A stretch of 39,705 bases of DNA from Mycobacterium sp. UM_CSW (GTDB taxonomy: Bacteria; Actinomycetota; Actinomycetes; Mycobacteriales; Mycobacteriaceae): assembly GCF_000455205.1 (NCBI RefSeq), contig NZ_AUWQ01000040.1, positions 1-39,705 on the forward strand, in the 5' to 3' direction. The notes beneath the pieces were generated by a model. It was not told the origin of the DNA and ran no database searches. It saw nothing but the letters and a program-made list of their open reading frames with translations. Both the position numbers and the translations under genes were made by a program. Shown here in pieces: positions 26,891-32,200 of the stretch; position 1 is the first letter of the stretch, and each line of letters begins with the position of its first letter.

Positions 26891-28555
26891 TCAGCTCGTG
26901 CGTCCGCGCTCGGTGCGGTAGCGGCGGACCAGCGCGTCGGTCGAGCTGTCGGTCTGCGGCGCGGGTGAGGCGTCGCCGGTGATCACCGGAAGCAGCGCCT
27001 TGGCCTGCGTTTTGCCTAGCTCGACACCCCACTGGTCGAATGAGTCGATGCCCCAGATCACCCCCTCGGTGAAGACCTGGTGTTCGTAGAGCGCAATCAG
27101 CTGACCCAGCACCGACGGGGTGAGCCGGTCGGCCAAAATCGAAGTGGACGGCCGGTTTCCGGGCATCACCTTGTGCGGCACAACGTCGGGGGGTGTGCCC
27201 TCGGCGGCGATCTCCTCGGCGGTCTTGCCGAACGCCAGCACCTGAGTCTGGGCGAAGAAGTTGCTCATCAACAGGTCGTGCATGCTGCCCGTGCCGTCGG
27301 CGGTGGCCAGGTCGTCGGTGGGTTGGCTGAAGCCGATGAAATCGGCCGGCACCAGCCGGGTGCCCTGGTGCAGCAACTGGTAGAACGCGTGCTGGCCATT
27401 GGTTCCCGGTTCGCCCCAGAAGATTTCACCGGTGTCGGTGGTGACCGGCGTGCCGTCGGCGCGGGTCGACTTGCCGTTGGATTCCATGGTCAGCTGTTGC
27501 AGGTAGGCCGCGAAGCGGGCCAGGTCGTTCGAATACGGCAGCACCGCGCGCGATTGCGCGCCCATGAAGTTGGAGTACCACAGCCCGATCAGGCCGAGCA
27601 GCACCGGCGCGTTCGACTCCAGCGGGGCGGTCTGGAAATGCCGGTCGACGATGTGGAATCCGGACAGGAAATCAGCGAACGCCTCCTTGCCGATGACGGC
27701 CATCACCGACAGCCCGATCGCCGAGTCGACCGAATAGCGCCCGCCGACCCAGTCCCAGAACCCGAACATGTTGTCGGTGTTGATGCCGAAGTCGTCGACC
27801 AGGCGCTTGTTGGTGGAGACCGCCACGAAATGCTTGGACACCGCGGCGTCGCCGAGCGCGTCGGTCAGCCAACGGCGCGCGGCGGTCGCGTTGGTCAGCG
27901 TCTCCAGGGTGGAGAAGGTCTTCGACGCGACGATGAAAAGCGTTGTAGCCGGGTCCAAGTCGGCCAGCTTGGCGACCAGGTCGGCGGGGTCGATGTTGGA
28001 GACGAAGCGCGCCGAGATTCCGGCGTCCGCGTAGTGGCGCAGCGCCTGGTAAGCCATGGCCGGCCCCAGGTCCGACCCGCCGATCCCGATGTTGACCACG
28101 GTGCTGATCTTTTTCCCGGTGGCCCCGGTCCATTCACCGCTGCGTAACCGGTCGGTGAAGTCGCCCATCTTGTCCAGCACGGCGTGCACGTCCTCGACGA
28201 CGTTCTGGCCGTCGACGATCAGCTCGGCGTCCCGCGGCAGCCGCAGCGCGATGTGCAGCACGGCCCGGTCCTCGGAGGTGTTGATGTGTGCGCCGGAGAA
28301 CATCTGGTCGCGGCGCTCCTCGAGGTTAGCCGTGCGCGCCAGGTCGACCAGCAGCCCCAGCGTCTCTCGGGTCACCCGGTGTTTGCTGTAGTCGATGTAG
28401 AGGTCGCCGGCGGTCACGGTGAGCTCGCGGCCGCGATCGGGGTCCTCGTCGAAGAACTGCCGCAGATGGGTCTGGCCGATTTGTTCGTGATGCCTGCGCA
28501 GGGCGTCCCACGCCGGGGTGGCGGTGATGTCGGGGATGGTTTGCAGGGAGGTCAT
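26891..28555 (-). CDS. pgi: Glucose-6-phosphate isomerase
   Basis: This 554-residue enzyme interconverts glucose 6-phosphate and fructose 6-phosphate in the cytosol. The sugar-phosphate isomerase fold is clear from [14 protein letters not shown], the phosphate-binding [31 protein letters not shown] (near PROSITE signature 1) and [11 protein letters not shown] near the C-terminus. Full length equals the H37Rv protein within a residue or so. ATG 28555 has AGGG 8 nt upstream. The chorismate mutase gene lies 52 nt upstream on the same strand, so read-through from it is possible. Confidence 0.96.
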
Positions 28556-28607
28556 GATTTGACCCTAGTGCGGTCCGACGGGGCGGAGCCAGGTGTGACG
28601 GATGGCC

Positions 28608-28880
28608 TCAGTGGCCGAGCCGGCCCCGGCCCAGCCGCAGCAACAGCATCGCCAGGTCTTTACCGTCGGGACCGAGCTCGCTGTAGCGCTCGATGACCTT
28701 CATCTCGCGGCTGTGGACCAGCCGGGTGCCGCCGGACGCCATCCGTACCTTGCCGATCGCCTGCGATACTTCGGCTCGCCGCTTCACCGCGGCGAGGATC
28801 TCGGCGTCCAGTCGGTCGATCTCCTGGCGCAACGCGTCAATGTCGGTAGCCTCTTGGGACTCGACCATCTCGATGTTCAT
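28608..28880 (-). CDS. Chorismate mutase, AroQ-delta type
   Basis: This 90-residue helical enzyme converts chorismate to prephenate, the first step toward Phe and Tyr. It closely follows Rv0948c, including KRRAEVSQAIGKVRMASGGTRLVHSREMKVIERY and the C-terminal LGRGRLGH. In M. tuberculosis this intracellular enzyme is weak alone and is activated by binding the DAHP synthase AroG through that tail. ATG 28880 is preferred because GGAG lies 7 nt upstream; an in-frame ATG at 28922 would add 14 residues (MRPEPPHQEN...) and has only a distant GAGG. A leader peptide and terminator hairpin lie directly upstream. Confidence 0.93.
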   Translation of the reverse strand: MNIEMVESQEATDIDALRQEIDRLDAEILAAVKRRAEVSQAIGKVRMASGGTRLVHSREMKVIERYSELGPDGKDLAMLLLRLGRGRLGH

Positions 28881-28936
28881 CTCTAACTCCGCATTCTCTT
28901 GATGTGGGGGTTCTGGTCTCATCCGTTATCGGGCCT

Positions 28937-28981
28937 CACAAAAGAGACGAGCCCCGAATCCGGAAGCGGACCACGGGGCTC
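28937..28981 (-). terminator. Attenuator-type terminator hairpin before chorismate mutase
   Basis: Read on the minus strand, GAGCCCCG (28981-28974) pairs perfectly with CGGGGCTC (28956-28949). Inside, TCCG-CTTC-CGGA forms a second 4-bp stem. The stem is followed by CTCTTTTG, a short U-rich run, as in an intrinsic terminator. It stands between the leader peptide stop (28993) and the enzyme start (28880). An 11-nt stretch of the upstream leader hairpin (CCGGCCAGCGG) can pair with CCGCTTCCGG in the terminator top, an alternative, antiterminating fold. Confidence 0.6.
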
Positions 28982-28992
28982 TGCGAAAGCAG

Positions 28993-29043
28993 CTACACCA
29001 CGGGCACCGCTGGCCGGTACCCATAAAAAAATCGGCGCTGCAT
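28993..29043 (-). CDS. Leader peptide rich in Phe and Tyr, for chorismate mutase attenuation
   Basis: A 16-codon frame, MQRRFFYGYRPAVPVV, is too short for ordinary gene calling. Codons 5-9 are Phe-Phe-Tyr-Gly-Tyr (TTT TTT TAT GGG TAC), the end products of the pathway started by chorismate mutase. GGTGAG lies 8 nt upstream of the ATG. Directly after the Tyr codons a hairpin GGGTACCG/CGGTGCCC (29022-29015 with 29009-29002; one G-U pair) begins, then CTGC-TTTC-GCAG, then the terminator. This is the classic layout of ribosome-mediated attenuation. Stalling at scarce Phe/Tyr-tRNA would cover the first arm and let the antiterminator form. Confidence 0.6.
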   Translation of the reverse strand: MQRRFFYGYRPAVPVV

Positions 29044-29268
29044 GTTGAGCACTCACCGAGTGTGCCACTAAGGGCCGTAACCACGCAAAAGGGTCTTAGT
29101 GATCATCGACGTCAGCAATCAAATAGGTTCGGTGGCCGCCCGCCCACGATCCTTCGCGACCGGAGTCCAGGGTCATCGAAGGCGGCCCTGAGTTGCGTTC
29201 CGGCTCCGGCCGCGAAGCCCAGACATCCGATCAGCCCGGCATGGTTCGATGCTCACGGCGTTCGCTCT

Positions 29269-32200
29269 ATGGTGAAAACCGTGCTCACAAAAGTACTGGT
29301 CGCTAACAGGGGCGAGATCGCCATCCGCGCCTTTCGGGCGGCCTACGAACTGCAAATGGCCACCGTGGCGATCTACCCGTACGAAGACCGCAATTCTGTG
29401 CACCGGCTGAAAGCCGACGAGTCGTATCAGATCGGCGAGGAGGGGCACCCGGTGCGGGCCTATTTGTCGGTTGACGAGATCGTCGCCACCGCCCTGGCGT
29501 GCGGAGCGGACGCGATCTACCCCGGGTATGGATTCCTTTCGGAGAATCCAGACTTGGCGACGGCGTGCGCGGCCGCGGGCATTACGTTCGTCGGCCCGAG
29601 CGCTGAGGTGCTCGAGCTGACGGGCAACAAGTCGCGGGCTATTGCGGCGGCGAGGGCGGCGGGTCTTCCGGTGCTGGCCTCCTCTGCACCCTCGACATCA
29701 GTGGACGAGCTGGTGTCGGCCGCCGAGTCCATGGCCTTCCCTCTGTTCGTCAAGGCGGTGGCCGGCGGAGGCGGCCGCGGGATGCGCCGAGTTACCGACG
29801 CGGCGGCGCTGCCCGAGGCAATCGAGGCGGCAAGCCGCGAGGCCGAGTCCGCCTTCGGCGATGCCTCGGTGTTCCTCGAGCAGGCCGTGCTCAACCCGCG
29901 GCACATCGAGGTGCAGATTCTGGCCGACACCCGGGGCAACGTGATGCACCTCTACGAGCGGGATTGCAGCGTCCAACGCCGGCATCAGAAGGTCATCGAA
30001 ATCGCACCGGCGCCGAACCTGGATCCCGAATTGCGGGAGCGCATCTGCGCGGACGCGGTGAAGTTCGCACAAAGTATCGGCTATACATGCGCAGGCACGG
30101 TCGAGTTTTTGCTAGACGAGCGCGGCAACCACGTGTTCATCGAGATGAACCCGCGCATCCAGGTCGAGCACACCGTCACCGAGGAGATCACCGACGTCGA
30201 CCTGGTGTCCGCCCAGCTGCAGGTTGCCGGGGGGCAGACCCTGGAACAGATTGGCTTGAGCCAGGATTCGCTCGTCCCGCACGGCGCGGCGCTGCAGTGC
30301 CGCATCACCACCGAGGATCCGGCCAACGGATTCCGTCCGGACACGGGTCGAATCACCGCCTATCGCACCCCGGGTGGGGCGGGAATTCGGTTGGATGGCG
30401 GAACGACGCTGGGGGCCGAGATCAGTGCGCATTTCGATTCGATGCTGATCAAACTGACCTGTCGGGGCCGGGATTTTTCCACGGCCGTGCGGCGTGCGCG
30501 GCGCGCGGTTGCGGAGTTCCGCATCCGCGGCGTGTCGACGAACATTCCCTTCTTGCAATCGGTTCTGGACGACGCGGATTTCCAGGCCGGCCGTATCACG
30601 ACGTCGTTCATCGAGCAGCATCCACAGCTGCTCACGGCGCGCAGTTCGGCGGACCGCGGCACCAAGATCCTCACGTACCTGGCCGACGTAACGGTCAACA
30701 AGCCGCACGGTGAACGCCCCTCGGCTGTGTACCCGAACGACAAGCTTCCTGACATAGACCTGTCGACGGATCCGCCAGCAGGATCCAAGCAGCGCCTGAT
30801 CGAACTCGGGCCGGAGCGGTTCGCGGGGTGGCTACGCCAGTCGCCGGGCGTCCGTGTCACGGATACCACGTTCCGCGACGCGCACCAGTCCCTGCTGGCT
30901 ACGAGGGTGCGCACCAGCGGACTGGTCATGGTGGCGCCATACATCGCCCGGATGATGCCCCAGCTGCTGTCGGTCGAATGCTGGGGCGGGGCGACTTACG
31001 ACGTCGCGCTGCGCTTTTTGAAGGAGGACCCATGGGAGCGGCTCGCGGCCTTGCGTGAAGCGATGCCCAACATCTGCCTACAAATGCTGCTGCGCGGGCG
31101 CAACACCGTTGGCTACACGCCCTATCCCGAGACCGTCACGACGGCATTCGTCGAGGAGGCGACTGCGACCGGCATCGACATCTTTCGGATCTTCGACGCG
31201 CTGAACAACGTCGACTCGATGCGCCCCGCGATCGACGCGGTTCGCCAAACCGGTACCGCCGTAGCCGAGGTGGCGATGTCCTACACGGGCGATCTCAGCG
31301 ATCCGGCCGAAAAGCTCTACACCCTGGACTACTACCTGAAGCTGGCCGAACAGATTGTGACGGCGGGCGCACACGTGCTGGCGATCAAGGACATGGCCGG
31401 GCTGTTACGCGCCCCCGCCGCGACCACACTGGTTTCCGCGCTCAAGGCTCGGTTCGACCTGCCGGTGCACGTACATACGCACGACACTCCCGGTGGGCAA
31501 TTGGCGACCTACGCGGCGGCCTGGCACGCCGGAGCCGATGCCGTCGATGGCGCAGCGGCGCCGCTGGCCGGGACTACCAGCCAGCCAGCGCTGTCCTCCA
31601 TCGTGGCCGCCGCAGCGCATACCGAATACGACACCGGCCTGTCCCTGGCCTCCGTGTGCGATCTGGAGCCGTACTGGGAGGCGTTGCGCAAGGTGTACGC
31701 GCCGTTCGAATCCGGGCTGCCCGCCCCGACAGGGCGGGTGTACCGCCATGAAATCCCGGGTGGGCAATTGTCTAACCTGCGTCAGCAGGCGATCGCGCTG
31801 GGTTTCGGTGACCGGTTCGAAGAGATCGAAGATGCCTACGCCGGGGCCGATGCCATCCTCGGGCATCTGGTCAAGGTGACCCCGTCGAGCAAGGTGGTCG
31901 GGGACTTGGCGCTGGCCCTCGTCGGCGCAGGCGTCAGCGCGCAGGATTTCGCCGATGACCCGGCGCGTTACGACATTCCGGACTCGGTCATCGGTTTCCT
32001 GCGTGGGGAACTTGGTGACCCGCCCGGCGGTTGGCCCGAGCCTTTACGCACCAAGGCATTACAGGGGCGCGGTCCGGCGAAGGCGGAGCAACAGCTGTCA
32101 GCCGAGGATGAAAAGGCGTTGGCCGCAAGGGGTATCGACCGCCAGGCAACGCTGAATCGGCTGCTGTTCCCCGGACCGACCAAAGAATTCGAGGACCATC

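Follow-up and report, generated by a model that had tools for sequence, protein, structure and literature searches.

The window, the whole stretch of 39,705 nucleotides analysed here, comes from a Mycobacterium-type genome (6.39 Mb in 186 contigs) and carries on its minus strand a gene for an AroQ-type chorismate mutase (PF01817), the step where Phe and Tyr synthesis branch off the common path. The encoded enzyme shares 99% identity with its counterpart in Mycobacterium sp. E796 (L031), and its gene is flanked downstream by a glucose-6-phosphate isomerase gene (PF00342) and upstream by a divergent pyruvate carboxylase-type gene. An open frame for chorismate mutase begins at ATG 28922 (28920-28922) and has 14 residues more than the M. 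tuberculosis enzyme of solved structure (2qbv_A, a 90-residue chain); the latter aligns from Met 15 of this frame, which is ATG 28880. Based on this alignment and on the Shine-Dalgarno site, the gene most likely starts at 28880 and not at 28922, and the 14 additional codons probably belong to the leader RNA, which would therefore extend to about 28881. The locus of M. tuberculosis itself lies outside the sample, in which the best identity to the solved M. tuberculosis protein among 396 genomes is 87%. Read along the minus strand, the region presents a -35-like element, 18 nt, a -10-like element, 6 nt, GTG 29052, a leader with a hairpin (P1) inside it, a spacer, a terminator with its tail, GGAG and chorismate mutase. 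The features are as follows.

29083..29088, minus strand: -35-like TTGCGT of the putative promoter, a weak consensus match with an 18-nt spacer; TTTTGCG is kept in the Mycobacterium loci printed
29059..29064, minus strand: -10-like CACACT within the conserved GGCACACT; relatives keep GGCA[ACG]ACT
28993..29052, minus strand: putative leaderless leader peptide VLNMQRRFFYGYRPAVPVV, with GTG start and stop codon at 28995-28993
29041..29043, minus strand: non-conserved ATG, the start assumed in an earlier note on this DNA
29023..29031, minus strand: putative control codons Phe-Phe-Tyr (TTT TTT TAT)
28998..29026, minus strand: P1, the leader hairpin of segments 1:2, with arms 29026-29015 and 29009-28998
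28965..29011, minus strand: candidate antiterminator (segments 2:3), 29011-28989 with 28984-28965, which excludes both P1 and the terminator
28949..28981, minus strand: predicted intrinsic terminator hairpin (segments 3:4), -23.0 kcal/mol
28939..28948, minus strand: U-rich tail GUCUCUUUUG
28887..28890, minus strand: Shine-Dalgarno GGAG of chorismate mutase
28608..28880, minus strand: chorismate mutase, the putative regulated gene, from its likely true start ATG 28880-28878 as placed by the 2qbv_A alignment

The earlier note had read a 16-codon leader frame, MQRRFFYGYRPAVPVV (29043-28993, minus strand), from ATG 29043, with GGTGAG 8 nt before it as a Shine-Dalgarno sequence. The frame and the GGTGAG are present in the sequence, but the conserved start is GTG 29052-29050, three codons upstream of that ATG and 6 nt after the -10-like CACACT. 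Among 135 distinct loci in which both the leader core and the -10-like motif occur, a set selected by the core pattern, an ATG stands at the place of 29043 in 13, while a GTG or ATG lies 6 nt (101 loci) or 7 nt (33 loci) after the -10-like motif in 134. This start is in frame with the leader core, with no stop inside, in 133 of the 134; the distance from start to core takes eleven values between 12 and 63 nt, the sole out-of-frame exception being 47 nt. Moreover, in 51 of 58 leaders from outside the window's family an in-frame start is preceded by xANNNT, whose last base lies 6-7 nt before it; the background for this pattern is 2.9% at shifted positions, a single place being tested each time. 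In three loci (L166, L210 and L240) the same -10-like motif is found 6-7 nt before a GTG that runs directly into chorismate mutase. This arrangement and the fixed -10-to-start spacing suggest that the leader mRNA is probably leaderless and transcribed from at or beside GTG 29052. Against this, a scan of the region with the sigma-70 consensus found no promoter. The retention of frame over eleven lengths, together with the fixed start spacing, also points indirectly to translation of the leader ORF. An in-frame insert of about 27-45 nt precedes the control codons in L004, L020, L034, L050 and similar Mycobacterium leaders. A terminator scan flags a 5-bp stem and a T-run made of the Phe codons at 29052-29035, which is probably due to chance.

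The Phe and Tyr codons are conserved well beyond the window. We scored the best three-residue leader stretch in 150 distinct Mycobacterium loci (L001-L170) picked by chorismate mutase alone. All three residues are aromatic in 115 of them, two are in 22 (a slightly generous class, as the aromatic residues of L089 sit elsewhere in the peptide), one is in 9 and none in 1; the remaining three are L166, which has no leader, and L019 and L127, in which the motif is missing or the sequence is cut. The conservation of these codons that the earlier note had expected in relatives is thus found in 115 of the 150 loci. Synonymous codons replace one another in the 135-locus set, the second Phe being TTC in 97 and TTT in 24, and Tyr being TAC in 118 and TAT in 13. 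In the 58 leaders of other families, 57 from the window's order plus L362 from another, Phe stands at the first place in 57; the second holds Phe in 47 and Tyr in 6, and the third Tyr in 55 and Phe in 2. Phe or Tyr occupies all three places in 52 of the 58 (recounted from the peptides), Trp is found at none of them, and Gly follows in all 58. At the codon after this Gly, just 29 of the 58 share the window's Tyr. The control codons first proposed were Phe-Phe-Tyr-Gly-Tyr; judged from these leaders, the F-F-Y portion is conserved and constitutes the putative control codons, at which Phe and Tyr replace each other, and the second Tyr is not kept beyond the window's family.

The same comparison bears on whether the peptide itself acts, as a ligand-responsive nascent-chain arrest peptide (or small protein) and not through a shortage of charged tRNA. 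In favour of this, the block RFFYGYR.AVPV is very constant within Mycobacterium. However, the N-terminal part of the peptide varies freely in length and sequence, Phe and Tyr are exchanged at the control codons, and across the order the residue after FFYG may be Tyr, Ile, His, Asn, Thr, Pro or Arg while the RNA pairs are kept, so that we regard an arrest peptide as very improbable.

The leader hairpin, a small CUGC/GCAG stem and the terminator with its tail, all described in the earlier note, are present in the sequence, and P1 overlaps the 3' half of the leader peptide coding sequence. None of 200 dinucleotide shuffles of the 161-nt leader folds as well as the native sequence (z -4.28). Shuffle tests on the individual hairpins were made with 103 of 117 sequences, 14 having been dropped with the automatic terminator call outside the expected place. 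In 99 of the 103 sequences no more than 1 of 50 shuffles equals P1, and in 102 the same holds for the terminator. The mean energies are -20.6 kcal/mol for P1 versus -10.3 when shuffled, and -23.8 versus -12.4 for the terminator, whose energy is favoured by its having been chosen as the best hairpin. In an alignment of 41 sequences (A1), P1 and the terminator are paired in 95.9% of cells, slid versions reaching at most 50.7%, and three pairs are changed on both sides; shuffles average 0.8 such pairs, and 10 of 500 reach three. Within Mycobacterium the columns of both hairpins barely vary, and covariation there tells little because of this scarcity of variation. At order level (56 distinct sequences) P1 is paired in 87.4% of cells, slid versions reaching at most 45.6%, and its covariation score is 0.239 versus 0.127 shuffled, with 0 of 200 shuffles as high; its count of double-change pairs is not unusual (50 of 200 shuffles). 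Automatic terminator calls in the order-level set are often wrong, and those numbers were left out of the evidence. U-tails are broken in many species. Because the parts recur across loci and beat their shuffles, we consider them to be more than chance.

A plain terminator or structured 5' UTR that senses nothing would also account for such hairpins, with the short ORF incidental and conserved through RNA pairing alone. The last leader codons do overlap P1, and part of the peptide conservation is explained by this pairing. Yet both Phe codons are kept although they lie outside P1 except for its weak outer pair, and neither the frame kept over eleven leader lengths nor the fixed -10-to-start spacing is expected of an incidental ORF, which renders this explanation exceedingly improbable.

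An attenuator needs a third fold that competes with the other two, and the earlier note had pointed to a pairing of CCGGCCAGCGG with CCGCTTCCGG. This pairing exists; it is the outer part of a longer candidate antiterminator in which AGCGGUGCCCGUGG...CUGC pairs with GCAG...GCCCCGUGGUCCGCU. We computed the fold of the RNA freed up to the terminator loop for different ribosome positions in the 103 sequences. With the ribosome at F1, F2 or Y3 the mean energy is -21.6, -21.2 or -20.5 kcal/mol, respectively; with the ribosome at the second Tyr it is -13.3 and at the stop codon -2.1, to be compared with -23.8 for the terminator. The gap between antiterminator and terminator stays within 3 kcal/mol in 68, 64 and 56 of the 103 sequences for F1, F2 and Y3, respectively, and in none for the second Tyr or the stop codon. 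These predicted energies favour an antiterminator of about the stability of the terminator that would be freed only by a stalled ribosome.

The pairing within the antiterminator is less uniform, with 92.9% of cells paired in its basal helix and 60.4% in its apical helix. In Mycobacterium its mean energy of -21.2 versus -17.5 kcal/mol with segment 2 shuffled is a modest gain; 31 of 103 sequences have at most 5 of 100 shuffles as good, and 19 have more than 20 of 100. In a swap test of 69 sequences in 12 groups, for which Mycobacterium was kept separate from the remaining genera of its family, native halves average -15.3 versus -13.5 (sd 0.8) for deranged ones. The native mean is reached by 21 of 3000 derangements, and 34 of 3000 beat their own draw. 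Taken singly, 5 of the 12 groups (f14, Mycobacterium, f2, f5 and f7) do better than either kind of swap, which is not so for the remaining 7. By this measure the two halves of the antiterminator on average pair best with partners from the same family, and individually they do so in only 5 of 12 groups. Of the two folds in which the earlier note had suggested testing for compensatory changes, P1 covaries at order level, and the antiterminator shows an average preference that holds singly in those 5 groups.

Could the leader act instead, or in addition, on translation, by hiding the ribosome-binding site of chorismate mutase? Single folds do allow the GGAG region to be paired with the spacer that follows the leader stop, and in 16 sequences the predicted openness of GGAG is slightly greater with the antiterminator (0.35 versus 0.27). 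However, the spacer and GGAG stretches do not co-vary (native -9.51, deranged -9.58, with 201 of 300 derangements as good). On this ground we rejected an additional layer of control by sequestration of the site, and translational control by the leader is highly improbable. A further stem lies within 28948-28881, where the terminator tail (UCUCUU..GUGAGG) pairs with CC..CACA..GAGA before the Shine-Dalgarno site. In 94 Mycobacterium loci its native energy is -14.3 versus -13.3 deranged, with 0 of 300 derangements as good, and it may perhaps protect the 5' end of the read-through mRNA.

T-boxes occur on Tyr/Phe pathway genes of other phyla, according to the portions of PMC1262725 available to us, so a T-box or metabolite riboswitch might be considered here. 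The anatomy, however, is that of a leader peptide attenuator, and the probability of a T-box or riboswitch is close to nil. An Rfam search of 28300-29500 with E up to 5 gave five chance-level matches and no leader, T-box or riboswitch.

We followed the element through related genomes with R1, a covariance model of P1 and the terminator, at a threshold of E 0.001 or less. R1 matches 180 of 397 genomes of the window's order, in 52 of 85 genera and twelve families, a few of the matches spanning the terminator alone. Outside the window's family we examined 60 order-level places, one or more per genus and hand-chosen from the listed rows. An FFYG-type leader is found in 57 of these, a count to be read in light of R1 having been built from sequences with Phe/Tyr codons, which favours finding such codons in distant relatives; L336 has F-L-L, and L355 and L321 have no aromatic leader. 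Chorismate mutase lies downstream in 58 of the 60, as identified by tblastn in 52 (18 + 34) and by Pfam in 6. At class level beyond the order, 1 of 15 places (14/16 genomes with matches) has both leader and chorismate mutase (L362, of one further family); the other 14 look like terminator matches and were rejected as attenuators. Both motifs are absent from the two phylum-level matches. In the window's genome R1 has one true match and a 22-bit partial match without FFYG, and no second leader was found. Nor was an aromatic leader found before DAHP synthase, prephenate dehydratase or prephenate dehydrogenase of the same genome within the stretch scanned (L381, a weaker second dehydrogenase-like match, was left out).

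Decayed forms are found closer to the window. In its family outside Mycobacterium, RFFYGY is kept in 4 of 56 loci (L185-L240), and the others have decayed forms such as RFPSGY, or none. Within Mycobacterium the Phe/Tyr codons are lost (RFPHG, RFPNG or an early stop) in L011, L017, L080, L089 (M. lepraemurium), L111, L114 and others, and several loci without these codons still have a strong terminator. The attenuator is partly missing in L127 and L168, and L166, L210 and L240 are natural deletions in which the same putative promoter leads to a leaderless chorismate mutase. Intact, decayed and deleted attenuators would form a natural series that offers material on how such switches are lost.

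Ribosome-mediated transcription attenuation of the trp/phe type is a classical mechanism, and the window holds sequence elements by which it is recognized: a leader ORF, tandem codons for the pathway products, an intrinsic terminator and an antiterminator that excludes it. Because of the control codons, the frame-keeping length changes, P1 and the terminator, the antiterminator energies and the same downstream gene across families, we consider it highly probable that this is such an attenuator of chorismate mutase, sensing Phe and Tyr, and to this extent our checks favour the mechanism that the earlier note had proposed. Transcription would begin at or beside GTG 29052, and the leaderless leader peptide would be translated immediately. 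With ample charged tRNA-Phe and tRNA-Tyr, the ribosome would reach the stop codon and cover segment 2, the terminator would form, and transcription would stop before chorismate mutase. If charging of either tRNA-Phe or tRNA-Tyr fell short, the ribosome would stall on Phe-Phe-Tyr and break P1, segment 2 would pair with segment 3, no terminator would form, and chorismate mutase would be transcribed. The switch would thus probably let the cell make chorismate mutase only when Phe or Tyr is short. If attenuation holds, gene-level feedback at chorismate mutase is widespread in the window's order and operates via a leaderless leader peptide, and the leader explains why many chorismate mutase starts have been annotated too far upstream.

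More tentatively, and with slightly less than even confidence, we propose that this is an ancient, order-wide leaderless attenuator acting as an OR gate, in which Phe and Tyr codons are interchangeable and a lack of either amino acid lifts termination, and that it has been repeatedly lost, in some lineages leaving a promoter that drives leaderless chorismate mutase. If so, feedback at the gene level would be added to the allosteric control for which the enzyme has been known so far. An attenuator of this kind would, in addition, overturn a comparative statement of 2005: in the portions available, that comparison of 20-odd actinobacterial genomes reports that Phe or Tyr operons are preceded by no conserved RNA structure (PMC1262725). 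In the full-text literature, as far as the sources were accessible, we found no chorismate mutase attenuator in actinobacteria; an earlier listing is possible in the tables of a 2014 survey of shared 5' UTR attenuation or of a 2026 M. tuberculosis paper.

Several actinobacterial systems resemble the window's leader in part. The AroR leader before the aroF operon of C. glutamicum encodes a Phe-Tyr-Phe peptide (Neshat 2014, cited in PMC11802643; aroF leader in PMC4046766) and, as is proposed for the window, attenuates the synthesis of aromatic amino acids through an aromatic leader peptide; unlike the window's leader, it controls DAHP synthase and, in the excerpts at hand, is reported to answer Phe but not Tyr. 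Leaderless leader peptides are described for C. glutamicum ilvB (cited in PMC4046766), for mycobacterial polycysteine short ORFs (Canestrari 2020, cited in PMC9094748) and for LeuL, TrpL1 and IlvL of Streptomyces lividans (PMC8079986). Like the peptide proposed here, they are amino-acid-rich, read from the mRNA 5' end and placed before actinobacterial biosynthetic genes, but they serve other amino acids and genes, none of them Phe/Tyr or chorismate mutase in the portions of these sources available. The experimentally tested ilvB1 attenuator of M. tuberculosis (PMC13236596, as excerpted) shares a leader ORF with product codons, competing hairpins and a terminator; it differs in serving the branched-chain amino acids and another gene. 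Another close parallel in design is the pheA leader of E. coli (pheL), with the trp-type attenuators, in which product codons, P1, antiterminator and terminator follow in the same order; E. coli pheA also includes a chorismate mutase (PMC11802643, in part). No likeness of the window's leader to pheL or trp-type leaders was found at sequence or Rfam level, and it differs from them in being, as it appears, leaderless, in mixing Phe and Tyr codons and in having a stand-alone AroQ-type chorismate mutase as its target. The chorismate mutase attenuator would represent a new case of the classical mechanism, with unusually wide conservation.
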